From Apostichopus japonicus (lineage: Eukaryota > Echinodermata > Holothuroidea > Aspidochirotida > Stichopodidae), in NCBI RefSeq assembly GCF_037975245.1, contig NC_092565.1, positions 21,595,499-21,659,498 on the forward strand: a stretch of 64,000 nucleotides of DNA, written 5' to 3'. This document shows, in pieces, positions 23,701-49,900 of this stretch (position 1 is the first letter of the stretch; the number at the start of each line of letters is the position of its first letter). The notes under the pieces were generated by a model. That model ran no database searches. It was not told the origin of the DNA and was given only the letters and a program-made list of their open reading frames with translations. A program made the translations under genes and the position numbers.

Positions 23701-26700
23701 ATGAACGCAACTCCTGAGGTGGATACCACCCCCACTTGCTCAGAGAACTTACATTGCAAGGATTCCTTGAGTTCTTTGGTCGGGGCAGCTTCGATGGCAG
23801 TCTTAGCGTGACAGTTGGGAAGGTTTGGATCAGCACCGTGGCTCAGTAGCAGTGAGCATACTTCAAGTCTGAAGAGATAACCCAAGCAAAATGATATGAG
23901 GAGAGACCGTGCAATTTCTTATTCTAAAACAAATCTCTAACCATCCGATGACTCTTGGATAAACATATGCTTACATCAATAATATAATGCTGTACTCTTC
24001 ACCATTCATACTCCTAGCGCTTAGAAAATTGAATCATGCATTTTGCAACTTACTCTGTCATTCAGGTAACTTCAAGATAGTCGGAAGTATTGTGAAGTGT
24101 CATAACCTGTAAATCAGCCCTATAGCCTAGGGGGCGAGGAATGGGGACTTCAAAAACATGGGTAACCTTACCTTCCTAAGGTTAAAGAAGTTTTGTGAAG
24201 TGAAGCAACCACTAACTGATCTTACAACTTACTCCAGGCTACCTTCATTTCTTACTGACCAAGCCCTGTAGGGTAAAGTAATCTGTCAGTAATCCACATC
24301 ATTGATAACCAACTAAGAAAACAAAGGCTGTCTTAGTCACTTACCTCACTGGAAGGCAGCCCCCAGTAGAGTGGAGTAAACTGCCCATAACCAGTAACAA
24401 TGCAAAAGAAGAACTCATGGCTACCATAGTTTCTAATACCTAGACTTCCAAGAATGCTAATGCAGTGATGTGAACTGCCAGTGATCCATGGCATTGAGAA
24501 ATAAGAACAGTTATGTCACCTTTGTTTCTTACCTAGACTTTGAGGAGGCCTCATGGGGCTGAATAAACCGCCTGCGATCCGTAGCATTGAGAAATAAGAA
24601 CAGTTATGTCACCTTAGTTTCTTACCTAGACTTTGAGGAGGCCTCGTGGGGCTGAATAAACCGCCTCCGAACCTTGGCATTGAGAAATATAAACAGTTAT
24701 GTCACCTTGGTTTCTTACCTAGACTTTGAGGAGGCCTCATGGGGCTGAATTAACCGCGTACGATCCGTAGCATTGAGATATAAGAACAGTTATGTCACCT
24801 TAGTTTCTTACCTAGACTTTGAGGAGAGTAAACTGCCAGTGATCCACAGAATTGAGAAATAAGAACAGTCATGTCACCTTAGTTTCTTACCTAGACTTTG
24901 AAGAGGCCTCATGGAGCGGAGTAAACTGCCAGTGATCCATAGCATTGACGTTCGCACCATGTCTAATGAGTAGTTCAGTCACTTCATAATGTCCATAAGA
25001 ACAGGCATTGTGTAATGGTACCAGACCCCTGGAAGAAATTATTAGGTTGGTACTGTTTATGCTTCTCAACTGAGAGATGAAACCAACTGAGGATCTTACT
25101 GTTGTTGTCTCACTGTACAGCCTTAAGAATAATTTTGATGATATGGTCTTTTAATAAGAAAAGCATCCATAAAGGAAATCAAAGAGACCAAGGCTCTTTG
25201 ACAATACGCAGTCTCAAGACAGAATTAAAGCTACAATGCAGCACTGCATTAGACACACACAGATGTGAACTTTGAAGTTTAATACAGTTTCAAAGAAAGC
25301 TCAAAAGTACCCTTTATCTTTTGCGTGAGCGTCTGCACCATGTTGAAGTAGAAGTTGTACTATACTGATCCTGTTATAGCCAGCCGCGAGATGTAACGGT
25401 GTAGACTGATGAATGGAGAGAAGAGAATCGTTGTAAATCATAAAGGTCTGTATATATATTTAAAAAGCAGTGTGGTTGTATTTGCAGTATAATTTCTTTC
25501 ACAGAAAAGAACACTAAAACATGAGAAATTCTACATTGTTCTGGGGATACTTTATCCAGTAAATCATAGCAAAATGGTATACGACTGGAAAGATGGATGA
25601 TGATGTAAAAAAAAAATTATGTACAAAACGTGAGCAGTTACTTTATTCCCTGTCGTTAATTTCTTGTTTTATTATTACAACGTATGTTTACAATATTTCA
25701 AATGTCCTATTATTTTGTAAAATAAATTACAACCAATAGTGACAAGCCTCTATGACTAACATTAGCCTACTAATTAAACATTACAAATTACATTAAATCC
25801 TGGCATCTTGATGGCATCTGACAGTTTAATAAAGAAAGAGTGGCTGTTAATCTCTTGCATGCCCAACACTAATCAATCTTCTTCATATCTATGCATCCCC
25901 TGGGGTAGATCCAATAGGGTGCAGAGGCACGATCGGGTGCATTTTAAAAGTGCCCCACAGGTCCCTACCCCCCCCCCAAAAAAATAGCCTAGGTAAAGAG
26001 AGACAATGGAAATTAAGTGTCTTGCCCAAGGACACAGCATAATGATCTGGCCAGGACTTGACCTGCAATCCTTAGATCACAAGTCCCTTGAGTTAATCAC
26101 TGACAACAACATATTGCATGTGTCCTTTTAGGCATGATATAAAAAAAACCTCCTCTTTCACTTGCTAGTATTCTTATAGAATTGAGCAACCAAATTGAGA
26201 TTTTGGGAAAAATTACTAAAATTAAAAACAGTTTCTTTACTAATTCATTGTTTCATGATTATGTCCAAAATAAGTTACCACAATACAGAGTTCCTTTTAC
26301 TCCATCAGAACTCAACACAAACCTTTCAAGTTCATTGTGCTGTTAAGCTACTGTACATACCTTTCGGCCATCACTAGCATGACAGTTGACATTCAAAGGT
26401 GTTAACAACGACATCATTTTCTCTTCGTTTCCACTTCTTGCTGCTTCTAACAGATCGTCTTTCCTATAGTCGCCCGTGAGCACCGCCCTCGCTGGAGGAT
26501 CGGCCAAGTCTAGAGGCGTTTTGCCGTCAGTGTTACGGATATTTGGATCGGCACCATGCTGAAGCAAAACTACAGAGAAGAAAAGGAGACGCTCACAATA
26601 CTAGTCTACAAGCTGCTCGACAAGACATGAGTGACTAGAGAAATGAGGTATCAAGTGAATTCTATCTGCATGAAAAAAGTTGATTGTTGTTTGAATTAAA

Positions 26701-33600: not shown

Positions 33601-36600
33601 CTCGGCCAAAATCACTTGAATTAATTTGTAATGCTATAAAAGTTACCATCACTATTACAATCATAGCAAACATCCACTTTCTTAAGGAAAGTCAATTAAG
33701 GCGTGACTTTTACTATCCAACATAATGAAAAATTACTACACAAAATTAAACTGACTTTTGTATGCATATTCACCTCCAAAAGTATACAAACTTTAAAGTG
33801 GTTGCATCCCGAATATTACATATACAGAACAGATTAATATAACAAGTTTCTACTTACAATGGTTCCAGTTCTTAAACTGTCAGACGAGCTCTGCAATACA
33901 GCTTTACTTTATCCGGTCAGGTGATGTACTTCCATCCCAACTCTGCCGACAAGCTGCCCTATCCAGAACACTAAATATTGTGTGATACTGGAATCTCCAG
34001 GGAAAAATTGTGTTTCAAGCTTTCACAGTTAAATGCCAGATATTAATTAAAGTATGCCAGCCCAGGCTTCAATACAGGTATCCTATATATAGGATCCTGT
34101 GCCCCATGATATGAAAATCACAATATTGTAGCTCCGTCTTTTTCAGCTAAGAGATACTTTTTAAGAAAAAGTCACCCAGGAAAGAACCTGGGCACGAAAA
34201 CCAAACTACCAAACGACTGATCCGCTCTCAGCCCCAGTCCCCTTGCATCGGGACTGTGACTGTGTGATCATCGTCAGGTGTGTATCACCATTCCCGAAAA
34301 GAACAGATACTACAAATGATCTTAGCCAAAAGGCCGAGAAGCGATATAGCTAAGAGATATAGCAGGACTCAATCCGATGATGGTATTTTGGAGAGTGAAT
34401 AAAAATCTTATCCAACACTCACTTCACTGGCTGGATGTGATGTCACACATAATTAATAGTGTATCAATTTGCATAACTTGGCAATACAATACATTGTCAT
34501 CTTGACTATGTCCTGCCCTGGTAGGTTTCTTTTGTGTGCACTAGTTATGCTATGCTACCCTGTACCTTTGTATTATTATACTATGCCCTGACCTGGTGAT
34601 GTTTCTTTTGTATACATACTCAATTATGCTACCTTGTATTTTTGTAGTGAATAGAGGGATTAGGGTTTATGTAAATTGTCCTACATCCTTGGATACTACT
34701 TTCCAACATCAACAACAACCAGCATTGACTAAAGTAAAAGTTACTAAAAAAAAAACTTTCTAAAATAAACAGCTGACAGATTGACTTCTTCTGTCATACA
34801 AATACAAATTAACTAAATTATACTATTCTAATGTGACACAGGCCACAGATAAAATTAGTTGTGCTGTTAATATTGGCCTACTGCTGTACCTGCTGCTTAA
34901 CCCTTTCAAGAAACAGTTTGAATGTTAGATGATAGAGCATTGAATGGAAAGATATAGTTAGAGTGACCCTGTTAGACTCCTATGAGGGGTTTCCTTCAGG
35001 GCAATTGGCCAGTATTATAATACTATGGGGGAGGACAATGGTTGACGTTTTGAAATATTGAAGTTGCATTAAAGCTGAAATAATACTGATTGTAATAGAG
35101 AGAGGAAGAAAGAATGGAAAGGTAGCAGAGGGGAAAGGTGGAGGGGATGTGTCTAGAGGGAAGAGAGAGTGAGTTTCTCAGCTAGGGAGAGGAGAAGAAG
35201 ATTAGCTGAGAACATAGAGCTTCTTTTCTGTAGAGCCTATACTTAGGTTATTATTGTGGACTTTTAGCAATGAATTCTATAACCACTAAGTGCTAGTCTG
35301 CTCTTTAACTAATCCAAATTGATCTATTAACAGCTTTTCTGTAATCCATGCAACCTTTATTTTCTTATTTAAATTGTTGGTATCTACCTTTCCTGCCTTT
35401 TTGTCTGTCTACTTCTTGTGTGGCTCATTAAAACCTTAGTGAGAAGTTAGTAAACATTTGGCAATAAGTAAAATAACAAAGCTTGCTTTGGTATTGTCAT
35501 CTTTTGTATTTATCCTTTTTCAGTGAAATTTTGTATCCAATCCATGGACCGCAACCCTTAAGGATTTATTATGACTACTTTGACGGAATGAAAATATTTC
35601 ATGAGATGGGAAATAAAAGATCAGGAACTTCTGCATGTTTATTGGTTATCTGTTGTGGTGAAACTTCTTAAGTTCTCATCACAAGTTTGCCGTTGAGTTG
35701 AAATTAATAGTATCAGTTGTTTTATATGGCTGGATACAGACGTTGCATTGATATTAAAAGTTTTCACAGGCTTCAGTATTTGCGTTCTGAAAACTCCGCA
35801 GAAATTTTGGCGTTTTACCCACCTGTGTTCTGCACCCTTTAACATCTTGTTTAACTTCTGTTTTTGTAACAGGGATCTACGGCCTTGACTATGTCTCCAA
35901 ATGGAACTTTGAAACTTGGAATGAACCAGACCATGGCGATTTTGATGGCCTAAAGTTTACAGTTCAAGGTACAAGTATATAATGCTTCATTCATTTCATT
36001 TCATTTTCATTTTTTTTATTTTTGTTCTATCACAACATAAGTGAAGCGAACCGCGGATAGCGGGGGAAATTACCGGGTTTAGGGTCCTTCGCTTCGAACT
36101 CCTAAGTTATCAATGAGGAGGCAAGAGTGTTCTTGCGTTGAAACAATGGCTGACTTTTATTACAAACTCTACACAATATGAAAATGAAAATATACAAATG
36201 AACAAATCATGATACATGACAGTATATAGTAAATGGCTTTATGAAATTAAATGGCTTAATAAACTGGGGGAAAACCTATACTCATTCTGTGAAATATGCA
36301 CAGAACCTGTGCTCAAACTAAGTAATATTCATACAACATGAATACAATTAAAGAATCAATACCCGCAATCACTCTTGTACTCTGTACACTGTACAACAAT
36401 GCATAAAGTGTATAAAGGAAAAATGTAAAATGAACATTATGAAATAAACTGCATAAATAATATTAAACGTTTGCCAACAGGCGAAGAATTTTACACCTTC
36501 GTAATGGTCAGCCTAGGGCAACACATGCCAGCTGCAACACATTATAGGCCTTTTCACCATACTGTTCCTAGACAGCAGGAATTTCCACCTCCTGAACCCA

Positions 36601-39600: not shown

Positions 39601-42600
39601 GGAATAAGAGTTCTCTTAGCTGTTTGGTGATGTTGTTCATGACAGTTATTTCTAGTTATCTCTCAAATAGACCAAAAATAATAGTTTGGTCTGTGTCTCC
39701 ATAACTATGAAGTCTTCAGTTGTGTTTCTTTGTGATTTAACAATGAAAGTCTGGAGCCGTGTGAGAGTTCGTATAACGAATTGAAAAGACATTAGCCTTT
39801 CTTTCTCCCACAGGGTGGTGGATCCTCCATGACTATCCTGAACACTGAATTTGAAACAATCGACATCATTCGACAAAAATACACTCTCCTAGCAAAGGTG
39901 CCAATTTTTAATGAGTAAGTTAATCAACTTTACAATTTTAGATCAAATCTCTAGCTGGGTATATTCCCATTGTGTCACCTGTGGAGAAAACAAGTGACCA
40001 ATTAAATGTTTTTATTATTGCCTGTTTGGTTTTTAACTCATGTTTACTTTCATTTTGGACATGTCCGTCAATGGTAAACTATTAAGAAATATCTTGAGAG
40101 TCCCTGACTGGTGGGACAAGAGAGGCAGGCAGTTGCATCTCACCGGATTGGGGACCATACAGGAAGAGCAGTTACATCTAAATGGAAGGCTCAGGGGTGG
40201 GGTAGCGCATTATTGAGCCTAGCTCAGAAACTGACAATGAAAAGCATTGTATAAGATTATCATGAACAGACAACTGATTAGGAAGTTTAATGAACCTTAT
40301 CGAAAAGCAAAGAATTTATTGGCTGGTAAGGGATGGAAACCTGCATTGAACTTAGGAACCCACTGCCTGTGCTCTCGGCTGGCCACTTGCATCATGTAAG
40401 AAGCCCATGAACTGTTGCTTAAATGTTGTCCCCCCCCCCCCCGAATTCAAGTTGGTAATGGATGGCTAGTTAAGTTAATCAAGGAATGTTTAGAGAGACA
40501 AACTTTCTGTCATCATAACTGGATTTACTACCATCAAGAGCTGGTCATGCTTACTTTACTTTTTGCTGGGAGAAAATATGGATTCATCGGATCAACATTA
40601 GCCACTGACCAAAAAACTTAGCCAGCAAAGGAGGTATTTGAGGGGGGAAAAAAAGCCAAGCAGGGTGGAAATATTCATAATCTGCTTTGTCACATGGTCC
40701 TCCACGAGAACATTCATGTTCTGTTTAAATCCGATTAACTCATATGTTATTTTAGGAGATTTGTTGTCGTTTATCAAATTATTTTGTTTGTACTTTTGCT
40801 TTGTTAGTGAGGCTGATCCCCTAGTGACATGGAGTAGACCAGAATGGTGGCGTGCAGACACAACATATGCTGCGGTGGTTGCTAAGGTAATACCTGGCTA
40901 TAGCATATATTGTAGTTACATGTATTAGTATATAATGGAGAAGGACTGCTGACAATCGTGGGGGTGAAAAAATTATCGAGTCATATATTTCAAGCCTTTT
41001 TTAAAACATCATTGCAAACAGTTCTTAAGAACTGTTTGCAATGATGTTTTAAAAAAAGCTTGATACCAATTGGTATAGTGCATGAATGACATCAAAGATT
41101 ATGACAAACATATACTCTCACCCAAATAAAGTGAACAACCTATTTTATCTTGAAACAAAGAACACACTATGAAGCTGTGGATTGGTTCAATGTGCTGCAT
41201 TTCTCAAGCTCCCCTCTGTGGAGAATAATATTTTATAAATATCAAACTTTGTGATCCAATTCACGGTGCATAGACAAATTACTACTGTATAACATCATTT
41301 CCATATTTTCATCCACTCAATTGTTTAATTTTGAGGTGATCATTCTCAGCTTTAAACTATCTCAGTTTCAGTAATTTATGTTAAGTTAATAAGCATGCAG
41401 CAATAATCCTACAGACTACCAAATTCGATGTTGTTTTGTTTTTAAATTTCCAACAGATAATTATCCAGCATCAACATTTACTCATAACGCCCAAGCCAGA
41501 CTACCGTTACTCTCTCCTTAGCAACGACAATGGATTCCTCAACTATTACCCTGCTTTCTTTGAGCAACGCACTCTGAACGCCCGCTTTCAAATGAATAAT
41601 ACAAAACCCAACAGTGTGCAGTTAATCAAGAAACCGGTTCTAGTCGTTATGGGTCTACTATCAAAGCTAGGAGATCAGTTGGTTCATGTTGAAGACTTGA
41701 AGAAAACATTTATGACAGATATCGGTATCCTAGCAACCACAGAGTCAACTGAAGCAGGGTATGTACATGTTTTCACATCTTCTCATTATTCCTATTTATT
41801 TTTGAAGGACCAATCAGATTCTTACCCTAACATGAAAAGAAAAGCCTCCTTGGTTGTAGGAAGGATCAATTTTAAAAGGGGGTTTTCTGAGGATTTTCTT
41901 GGTGAAACTGACAGAAATTTGGAAAATATTTCACTCGAAAGGGTATGGTAATATTCAGCACTATAAAATCACTTAAAAATATTCTTTAATAGGGTGTCTC
42001 CTTTTGATAGGAAATCCCTTGTTAATGGGATTAATGTTAGAACAAAGAATTGTTTGAAATGTGAATATTTAAAAAAATTACTTATTTCATGTCTAAGAGT
42101 AACATATAGTCCTGTTTTAATGGTAAGGAAGTTATGAATCTGTTATGGATGTTGCTGACATACTTGATCTAATCAAATGAGGTCATAGGTCAACACCATA
42201 AATCTCAGTTTAAAGCATTTTTTTGCTTTAATTTTTATCAATCTTCCACATCATTTCTGTCATCTTTTCATAGTACATTTCATTAGTTTGTACTCATCAA
42301 ATTTGTTTCAAATGAAAATGGAAATGGTCAATACTTCAAGTAGAAAATGTAATTTACACTGTTTTCAATAGCATCAATGCAACAAAATTTTCAGATTTAT
42401 TGTCAATATTAACTATTCCACTGATTACTTTAATTTTGTTATAAAAATTTAGAAGGATGCCTTTGTTTGATTTGTAATCTTAACTTAACAAAAAGCAGAG
42501 AATTTTGGGCGAGAACAGGGGCTGAATAGCTCAGATGATAGTGAGCACAGGACTTGAAATCTGGATGTCATTGGTTTAAATCTCATTTTGGCCAAAAAAA

Positions 42601-46926: not shown

Positions 46927-49900
46927 TCATTGATCATTAGCTGCAAGTAAAGAGCAATAGAAATGTTTACATTACTCTATTACATATAAACCGCATTTCT
47001 CAAAAATAGCATGAAGTACTTGAACAAATATTTTACCAGGATAAGTTTAGATCATATTTCATTATTACATGTCAAAAGAAACAAATTTACCTCAGAACTG
47101 AACATCATCACTCAAATTGGGTTGGATCCGACTCAGTTGTTTATTGAGAACGTTAATCCTTAAGATGTAACTAGTGAAAGTTTATGCAAATGCATTAAAT
47201 ACTGTGGACTTAAGGCAGCTGTTTCATCCAGCAGCCATTAGCTACTTACACTGTCCTATTTACCAAGCATAATAACCTAGTAACCTAATAACCTAGTAAC
47301 CTAATAACCTAGTAACCTTTAACACTACATCCTCTCTTTGAGGTCATCTCCTAGACTACCAACTCCTAATTATATTTAGGATTAATCCTAATATTAATCA
47401 TATTAATCCTAGGATTAATCCTAACCCTAAATATTTAGGATTAACCCTAGTTAGGATTAATCCTACTCAAGCATTCTTTTCTTCAAACTTTTCTCTGTTT
47501 CAATCAGATTAGGCAAAGAAAAAGAAAAAAAACTGTAAAAAGGGGTCGTTCCCACGAAAACTTGATATATCTTAAAAAGTTTAATATTAAAATAAGATAA
47601 GGGAATTACTCACTGTATCTGCAGTTTCGTGTATAGGCAGTCTGTCCGTTGTAGAAGAGGTTACATATAATCTCATTGTTGGAGTAATCACTCTCGGCAA
47701 CAAACTTGTCAGGGTTGACATCAATCTGGATTGAAATTGTAAAGAGGAAAAGTGTCCGGTTTTTAAGAGAGGACGAAGAAAAATTACCCACGTATTGAAA
47801 GAAAAAATCTTTTTCACACCAGTAGGTTGCCTGTTTTGAGCACTAACATAGTATTGTAGTTCATAACATGATAGATGTATTTCTTGCCTTGGTTGGTCTG
47901 ATCCTGTTTACTGTGGTCTGTCTTTGTCTGGGATTATCTGATCTCGTCTGGACTGATCTTATATTATCTAATTTCATCTGCTCTGCTCTTACCTTATCTG
48001 ACATGATCAGATTTCATTTCATCTGATCTCAACTCATCTGATATGGTTTCATCTGATCAGCACTGATCTCATTGCATTTAATCTGTCCTGATCTGATTAC
48101 ATTCGACCTGATCTGATCTGATCCCATCTCATGTGACCTAACCTGATTTGTTTTCATTTGCTCTAATCTGATCCTATATCAGCTGATCTGATTTCATATG
48201 AGCTGATCTGATCACATGCTATCTGAACTGATCTCATCTCATATCACCTGATCTGATCTCATCTGGACTGATCTGATCTCGTCTGGACTGATCTTATATT
48301 ATCTAATTTCATCTGCTCTGCTCTTACCTTATCTGACATGATCAGATTTCATTTCATCTGATCTCAACTCATCTGATATGGTTTCATCTGATCAGCACTG
48401 ATCTCATTGCATTTAATCTGTCCTGATCTGATTTCATTCAACCTGATCTGATCCTATCTCATGTGACCTAACCTGATCTGTTTTCATTAGCTCTAATCTG
48501 ATCCTATATCAGCTGATCTGATTACATATGACCTGGTCTGATCTCATATCACCTGGTCTGATCTCATCTGGACTGATCTTCTTCTGATCCGATTTCATCT
48601 CACCTCACCTCATTGCACCCCTTCTGACTTATACCGTTTTGCAATTTTTGGCACTGCCTTACCTAGATATATTTAGTCTGATATTGTGTAATTCCATATT
48701 ATATATTGTCCCATCCTTGCTTCATTGGCATGTATCAATGATACATTCTAGTCTGAAGTTGTATGTAGTAGTGACTTTGAATTTTATGGTCTGACCCTCG
48801 ATTCAGTGTACTCTTGAGACTCAGCATCATGACTTTATCATGTGACCAGGTCTTACCTCATTAGGTCTCTTCTTTAATAATAATAAAGTTATAAATAAAG
48901 TTGAAGGTTTACAGTCTTGTATGAGACTAATGCCTCCTCACATGACTTTACAACTTAACCCTTGGTCATTGGTAACTTGTCACACCCACACACCAAAGTG
49001 TGCCCAATTCAATCAGTCTCTCCTGGGACACCACAGTGCACCACATTCACATGTCCCCCGGGGGACTTCCCATAGGGTGCAGCCACAAGCCGGCGCACAC
49101 AACTATATTTACAAGTTATCTCACAAGTCCCCATTCATACACCTGGGTGAAGAGAGGCAATGGAGATAAAGTGCCTTGCCCAAGGACACAACGCAATGAT
49201 CTGGCCAGGACTCGAACCTGCAATCCTTAGATCACAAGTCCACTGCCTTGACCACTTGACCACAACGCTCCCGTAATAAATACCTCTTCAGTGCTCCCAC
49301 TGAATTTGTATCTGATCGCAGTATCTTTGTTTTCATTTTCATATTCATCAGACTGTAAATAATAAAACCAAACATGTATAAAAAAGGGGGGGGGTGGAAA
49401 TAGAAAACATTTTTGTCTTACCCTTAGTAGGTACCTGTCTGGATTCAATCCTGTGATATCTATCCACTGACAGTCTATATCATTACGATACAGGTCCACA
49501 CAGTTTGGGGAAATTCCCTGATCTCCATTGCACGAGAAAAACTTCTTAGCTCCCGAATCACAATAGCCATCCTCGAGACAGAAGCTAGCTTTGTGACCCT
49601 CCGCTACTTTCTCTCCGGACATATTAGTGATGTCGTAATGAGAAAATACTGACATGCTGTGGAAATGCCTGTTGATATAACATATAAGTCCAAAAGGTCA
49701 ACGTTACAATATGTAGTTTATTCTGTTGATCCTTGTAGTTTCATTACTGTGACAGAGTTGATTTTATACCCACCAAGATTCAGGGGCAAAGATAACGTTT
49801 TTTTGGGAGTGGGGGGGCTTATGAAGGATTACGTCTTTAACAGGACAAGGGACAAGTTTAAGTTGCTACCATGAAATGATCAACTGCTGGTCATGTCTTC

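Follow-up and report, generated by a model that had tools for sequence, protein, structure and literature searches.

Short interspersed elements (SINEs) that begin with part of a small nuclear RNA (snRNA) are reportedly found in crocodilians, where the SINEU elements described by Kojima in 2015 are said to carry heads of U1 or U2 snRNA, to be linked to a LINE of the Tx1 clade, and to have received U1 or U2 sequence recurrently. SINEs of this kind pose a puzzle: transcripts of an snRNA gene such as U2 do not include its promoter, which should leave a retroposed U2 head silent. Parts of PMC5753468 and PMC8010984 treat SINEU. A different life style is described in sections of PMC3414825 for the Short Internally Deleted Elements (SIDEs) of R2 in Drosophila ribosomal DNA, which bear the R2 5′ ribozyme and a 3′ end from R2 or R1; their authors call them SIDEs, not SINEs, because they depend on being transcribed together with the 28S gene, and the same sections report U12 snRNA joined to R2 through template jumping. 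U2 genes are themselves targets of two autonomous LINEs, Keno, with an APE-type endonuclease, and Utopia, with a restriction-like endonuclease, whose 3′ U2 flanks are identical; the sections of PMC4640811 that describe them mention no non-autonomous U2-resident element. Among the titles listed in our literature search, none named a U2-gene-resident SINE or an snRNA-headed echinoderm SINE (the original SINEU description lay outside this search).

Here we describe a U2-headed SINE family of the echinoderm Apostichopus japonicus, starting from one copy in a stretch of 64,000 nucleotides (hereafter the window; C5:21595499-21659498 of the 671.6-Mb assembly). Like SINEU, which we compare by description only, the family combines a SINE-like length, a 5′ head derived from one of the two snRNAs U1 and U2, many copies, and a target preference; unlike SINEU as described, it also occurs inside U2 genes with U2 sequence on either side, which offers a direct route for gaining a head. 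Like the R2 SIDEs in the sections cited above, it is non-autonomous and occupies a LINE insertion site within a multicopy RNA gene (seven places, at U2 nucleotide 35), and by analogy the R2 SIDE would be its closest precedent in life style. Unlike those SIDEs, it keeps the 5′ part of the host gene as a head and is mostly dispersed. Both ends of a SIDE derive from LINEs, whereas here the 5′ end is U2, the window element has no Rfam ribozyme match, and no similarity to the ends of the LINEs in the U2 array was found. With Keno and Utopia, as far as the relevant sections of PMC4640811 describe them, it shares the U2 neighborhood, U2 resuming at about nucleotides 35-39, although those two LINEs, unlike the SINE, are autonomous. 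The family thereby hints at how hybrid SINE/snRNA elements arise, and it connects SINEs with R2 and its SIDEs, which live in a host gene and are transcribed together with it, the gene in this case being that of an snRNA needed for splicing. Since dispersed copies, U2-resident copies, and a fresh chimera coexist in a single genome, both origin and transcription are directly testable.

The window element and its family

On the minus strand of the window, the Rfam U2 model (RF00004) matched 34345-34251 with 56.3 bits (gathering score, 46), at E = 1.8e-8 over the whole window and E = 8.9e-11 when the region 34100-34420 was scanned alone. A preliminary description, made from the letters of the window, had recognized a U2 head of 47 bases; its U2 origin holds, and its length was slightly short, as the head (34296-34345, minus strand) comprises U2 nucleotides 1-50, of which 49 of 50 are identical to the U2 genes of the host genome, the single mismatch being G31T. 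Within it lies AGTATCTG (34304-34311, minus strand), that is, U2 nucleotides 35-42, which is the residence site in U2 genes and also the point where the heads of other copies are interrupted. The U2 identity then ends as abruptly as had been noted, with U2 going on AGCTTAAT and the element GGGAATGG. It is followed by a 137-nucleotide non-U2 body (34159-34295, minus strand), which is identical at 137 of 137 positions to two copies within U2 genes. Near the 3′ end of the body, the hairpin CCCAGG-TTCTTT-CCTGGG (34175-34192, minus strand; arms 34175-34180 and 34187-34192) is followed by TTTTTC, TTAAAA, AG (34158-34157), and the flanking duplication TATCTCTTAGCT, so that the terminal hairpin and the T run noticed previously are both present. 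When folded, the minus strand of the element gave z = -3.06 relative to shuffles, 2 of 200 of which were equally stable.

The flanking 12-bp direct duplication AGCTAAGAGATA was found where it had been seen before, 100% identical between its 3′ copy (34145-34156) and its 5′ copy (34348-34359; TATCTCTTAGCT on the minus strand, by repeat comparison), with two additional bases (34346-34347) between the 5′ copy and the head. The AGTA that follows TTAAAA (34155-34158, minus strand) equals U2 nucleotides 35-38; its AG lies outside the target duplication and is not target-derived, and the next TA lies inside the duplication, the earlier account being accurate to within a few bases. In the predicted fold of 34220-34345 (minus strand), a helix joins CGCTTCTCGGCC, the 5′ end of U2, to GGGGCTGAGAGCG in the body, and several diverged copies carry GGGGTTGAGAGC at this pairing segment. 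Compared with Rfam, the body yielded nothing besides U2 and one hit far under its gathering score. Neither the Rfam scan nor a tRNA search matched the window element to tRNA, 5S, or 7SL RNA, and an origin from any of these was ruled out for want of matches.

The body proved to be multi-copy, as the body-only search suggested earlier would have it: a 38-nucleotide body probe, allowing up to three mismatches, matched 1,675 places genome-wide, 865 in forward and 810 in reverse orientation, and the reversed-pattern control matched none in either. Head and body recur together, flanked by different target duplications in different copies, and exact head-body junctions, with a five-place center of four free letters and a T, numbered 149 (78 + 71; control, 0). 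At least 57 genomic matches were obtained with the whole element (40 of 2,812 first-look candidates scored) and likewise at least 57 with its 3′ 136 nucleotides alone (40 of 2,408 candidates scored), where 41 of the 57 scored matches, including the window copy, were identical across all 136 nucleotides; the repeat family is young. A detailed sample of 47 copies, distinct by their flanks, was extracted, which is skewed toward young, well-matching copies because most came from the tops of ranked lists. These data support the reading of the preliminary description, namely a retroposed, multi-copy family with a U2 head in an invertebrate. The mitochondrial contig C35 likewise indicates an echinoderm host: of the codes tried for its COX1 (tables 2, 4, 5, and 9), table 9 (AAA = Asn, AGA = Ser, ATA = Ile) gives a clean reading with the residues expected at conserved sites, table 2 introduces stops, and the frames downstream resemble nad4L, cox2, and atp8, arranged as in echinoderms. 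In the broad sense the family is a SINE, being short, non-autonomous, and retroposed, with target duplications that differ among its many dispersed copies; in the strict sense it departs from one in its head, which matches none of the Pol III RNAs tRNA, 5S, and 7SL. Its tail ends TTAAAAAG. Head-to-tail clusters of copies were seen at C11:20354624-20355220 and C2:21947644-21948939; the former (locus L017) holds three copies that differ in sequence but share the TACCTTTCCT that comes next, which might reflect repeated hits on a single site.

SINE copies and LINEs inside U2 genes

A genome-wide Rfam search returned at least 46 U2 hits, each covering U2 nucleotides 1-192, at least 42 of them on the minus strand of C16 (31015207-31155899) and at least four on C15. 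The C16 hits form a tandem array with a spacing of often 645 bp and some larger gaps. Thirty U2 genes were fetched, 27 from C16, which were all identical, and three from C15, which were slightly different. SINE copies were found residing inside these genes, which had not been anticipated in the earlier account. A pattern of the SINE 3′ end joined to U2 35-58, with one mismatch allowed, occurred at seven places (reversed control, 0): six on C16 (31006757-31134570), in or beside the tandem array, and a seventh on C20, where an old U2 copy carries the pattern with one mismatch. In all seven, the 3′ side of the SINE is joined to U2 nucleotide 35.

Two of these copies, SINE-a (C16:31132164-31132509) and SINE-b (C16:31059147-31059492), share the layout U2 1-45, complete body (137/137), and U2 35-193, SINE-b having one change in its U2 part; they may be duplicates of a single event. 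Locus L071 contains one copy with U2 1-45 followed by CCCTCGGGAATGG and the body, and another in which U2 1-53 is joined to a body truncated to CTGACG, followed by U2 35-193. At L081, a LINE end is followed by U2 35-53, a SINE truncated to its last 68 nucleotides, and U2 35-193, the insertion bearing a 19-bp target duplication. L095 is a nested pair, running from U2 1-40 through a truncated SINE into U2 35-45, a full SINE joined to the latter by a CCCTA junction, and U2 35-193, and reads as a second insertion at the same U2 nucleotide. The C20 copy (L096) is an old SINE, 84% identical, in decayed U2 sequence (90%); its 3′ flank resembles that of a C15 U2 gene, which makes an old U2 gene copy likelier, and a retrocopy of a read-through transcript was accordingly set aside as less likely.

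Upstream DNA was compared for SINE-a, SINE-b, both L071 copies, and L095, that is, for all but L081 and L096. It equaled the intact U2 unit at 440 of 440 bases for SINE-a and both L071 copies, at 439 of 440 for SINE-b, and, over a shorter stretch, at 167 of 168 for L095. To judge from this sequence, the interrupted U2 genes would be transcribed from the U2 promoter. No promoter motif was recognized upstream of the U2 genes, and this DNA aligns poorly between the C15 and C16 genes.

The junctions between head and body are of several types. Among the first 100 of the 149 exact junctions, the center read CCTTA in 42, CCTTC in 37, TTTTA in 8, TTTTC in 4, and CCCTC in 3, with six singletons. The window copy is of the TTTTC type; these letters are U2 46-50, and its head therefore extends to U2 nucleotide 50, which is also where the 5′ U2 part ends before one of the LINEs of the array (LINE A, below). 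In four of five fetched copies of 85-95% identity the junction center was TTTCGAGGGG, so the junction stretch also alters with age. The resident copies display CCTTA, CCCTC, and CCCTA, which could differ by mutation and not by separate capture. No source of CCTTC, TTTTA, or TTTTC was present among the seven resident places, though these types are common in dispersed copies; loss from a homogenizing array may explain this. The junction of the truncated L071 copy, TTCTTTTCAGC/CTGACG (U2 1-53 plus body), occurred once genome-wide with up to one mismatch (control, 0), and this chimera is a fresh new head, so far without offspring.

At least four LINE families, A, A2, B, and C, also interrupt the C16 U2 genes. 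LINE A, of 5.3 kb, lies between U2 1-50 and U2 35-193, and LINE B, of 5.0 kb, between U2 1-30 and U2 from nucleotide 38; LINE A2 follows U2 1-25 and LINE C follows U2 1-29, U2 resuming at nucleotide 35 in both. LINE 5′ junctions at U2 nucleotides 50, 25, 30, and 29 were thus seen across the array at C16:30.97-31.16 Mb (L042-L071, L081, L082, L089, and L091-L096). Two long open frames are present in both LINE A (L069) and LINE B (L070): one encodes a zf-CCHC domain, the other an APE-type endonuclease (PF03372) and a reverse transcriptase (PF00078). Their ORF2 proteins are 36% identical, and the best solved match of LINE A ORF2 was human L1 ORF2p (5.6e-82; R2, 3e-20). By domain content and position, both appear Keno-like in enzyme type and site, lying in U2 near the Keno/Utopia site as given in the sections of PMC4640811; unlike Utopia, which encodes one protein with a restriction-like endonuclease, they are APE-type with two long frames. 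LINEs A2 and C were recognized by C-terminal similarity to A alone (44-45% and 39%). With the LINE A C-terminal query, which did not retrieve LINE B, 150 of 1,095 candidates were scored, and the A, A2, and C matches all fell within C16 30.97-31.16 Mb; six LINE A matches with long open frames were identical across the 222-amino acid query, which suggests recent activity. Because A, A2, and C were seen near the array only while the SINE is mostly dispersed, they are unlikely to be its main driver: They share its site, but the driver need not be their enzyme.

The LINE sharing the 3′ end of the SINE, for which the preliminary description had advised looking, was not found, the tails of LINEs A, A2, B, C, and E having no significant similarity to it. 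A pattern for the tail without the body occurred at nine places, most of them diverged or truncated SINE copies; this screen was weak, as its exclusion letters removed SINE copies at one position only. One locus with a reverse transcriptase motif upstream of the SINE tail (L077) was dropped as a partner LINE, since an opposite-strand LINE B fragment just downstream makes a truncated SINE within decayed LINE sequence likelier. The end of LINE D, a large dispersed family (eight copies, L099-L106), resembles that of the SINE in having GTTTGGTAGT, a hairpin, and TAAAAAGCAC. In unanchored comparison with the SINE tail, loose scoring gave p = 0.03-0.05 in seven copies and 0.38 in the eighth, and strict scoring gave p = 0.10-0.36; anchored at the 3′ end with the last 11 nucleotides removed, p was 0.07 for L102 and 0.59 for the diverged L103. 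LINE D is thus a candidate partner as a lead only. Its copies lie on C17, C16, C7, C3, C11, C23, and C12, with many matches at C17 15-25 Mb, and terminate GTAAAAAGCAC after the hairpin, which is faintly SINE-tail-like. At L084, repeated tRNA-like sequences (GTAGCGTCGCCGAGTGGTCTAAGGCGCTGG...) follow a LINE that ends in poly(A).

Footprints of the dispersed copies

Subtracting four from the sample of 47 left 43 copies outside real U2 genes. A head was recognized in 35 of these, and 23 of the 35 start at U2 nucleotides 1-3, which is the start of the U2 transcript. When U2 upstream DNA from four regions was compared with 40 upstream stretches of 300 bp (L001-L038, lying before the head sites, some loci overlapping), a single 25-nucleotide match of 84% was obtained (E = 0.01), which we take as chance; the dispersed headed copies thus show no sign of a U2 promoter before their heads. 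On the 3′ side, CTTAAAA is followed by AGTA in 38 of the 41 copies scored, a set that omits six copies whose flank begins AGTATCTGTTC (four U2-resident and two nested). AGTA, being U2 35-38, could stem either from a template RNA running on into U2 35 onward or from the element's own end. Of the letters after it, the first is T in 26, the second C in 26, and the third T in 30 of the 41 copies, and TCT follows directly in 13 (p = 3e-13, assuming the base composition of the window and independence). Dispersed copies thus appear to prefer U2-like TATCT targets (U2 nucleotides 37-41); some of the letters after AGTA may come from the RNA of the element and not from the target.

Duplications of 7-25 nucleotides were detected mechanically in 28 of the 47 copies (four headless copies fell outside the test, and the four U2-resident ones yielded none). 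For 24 of these 28 copies, the start of the duplication lies 2-5 nucleotides past CTTAAAA, so that at least the AG is not target-derived. Two nested cases were found in which one copy interrupts the head of another exactly between U2 nucleotides 34 and 35 (L005/L036 and L033/L034).

Promoter capture and its alternatives

The family apparently carries the start of U2 by inserting into U2 genes and being copied out together with them, and the window copy is probably a dispersed, dead-on-arrival member of this non-autonomous retroposon family. We consider it likely that the element itself is promoterless and is transcribed as a U2 co-transcript while in a U2 gene, the dispersed copies descending from such sources. 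The sources would be the copies inside U2 snRNA genes, where U2 resumes at nucleotide 35 on the 3′ side and where the upstream DNA of intact U2 genes is retained in the four compared. The U2 promoter would transcribe the interrupted gene into an RNA running from U2 nucleotide 1 through the SINE into U2 35 onward, and a LINE reverse transcriptase would copy this RNA by target-primed reverse transcription, with insertion into U2 genes and into other places similar to U2 nucleotides 37-41 (TATCT). Heads mostly from U2 nucleotides 1-3, ends that are nearly all AGTA, and flanks that are U2-like at their start would be the footprints of this process.

We also lean, with somewhat less confidence, toward a full cycle of promoter capture, in which a promoterless element is transcribed in U2 genes only, its head is refreshable host DNA, and its sources are few and lie in the array. 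A 5′-truncated SINE landing in a U2 gene would gain a head made of the U2 sequence upstream plus the target duplication, as was seen once and may hold generally. Upon each new U2 insertion the 5′ duplication would set the junction between head and body, and the head, as the upstream part of the host gene, would be captured together with the promoter, so that recapture would be possible. Each dispersed copy, bearing a U2 head, would form a new landing site, and the family would be sustained by a handful of source copies within an essential array of splicing-RNA genes, which it shares with several LINE families.

The U2-resident copies could, alternatively, be bystanders of the target preference. 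A reverse transcriptase working on SINE or LINE RNA would then have switched once to U2 snRNA or a 5′ fragment of it, the insertions in U2 genes being a side effect. Jumps of R2 to U12 snRNA and tRNA are reported in sections of PMC3414825, heads from U2 nucleotides 1-3 would be expected after such a switch as well, and the majority of copies lie outside U2 genes (1,675 places versus 7). However, the heads end within U2 (nucleotides 45-53), where a target duplication would stop, and not at the U2 3′ end, and the fresh head/body chimera is still within its U2 gene with U2 on either side; both make a template jump the less likely origin. A jump would also leave the transcription of promoterless dispersed copies unexplained, and we regard it as unlikely. 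Still less probable, in our estimate, is a self-sufficient SINE in which the body holds a cryptic internal RNA polymerase III promoter and the U2 head is a passenger. Many near-identical dispersed copies would fit this reading, as would the T run near the 3′ end, which could stop Pol III; against it, tRNA, 5S, and 7SL matches are lacking, and in the inspected copies the sequence continues beyond the T run to CTTAAAA, meaning that the T run did not terminate their RNAs. Co-transcription with the U2 gene is what the evidence favors instead, a life style that resembles that of the R2 SIDEs more than that of an element transcribed by RNA polymerase III. Although animals commonly have U2 pseudogenes, an ordinary pseudogene, or a lone chimera beside unrelated sequence, is refuted by the 1,675 body places and the 149 exact head-body junctions, and we give it virtually no chance.

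A few further observations concern other parts of the window and genome. On the minus strand of the window, a weak Rfam tRNA match at 49202-49264, where ARAGORN called no tRNA, lies within a segment (49142-49266) that is 85% identical to 25988-26110; the two segments are possibly copies of a tRNA-derived SINE. Another tRNA-like Rfam match (42520-42594; 37.1 bits) likewise received no call from ARAGORN. On C29 (14745-31219), a second set of COX1 pieces was present besides the mitochondrial contig C35, as either a nuclear copy or an effect of assembly.
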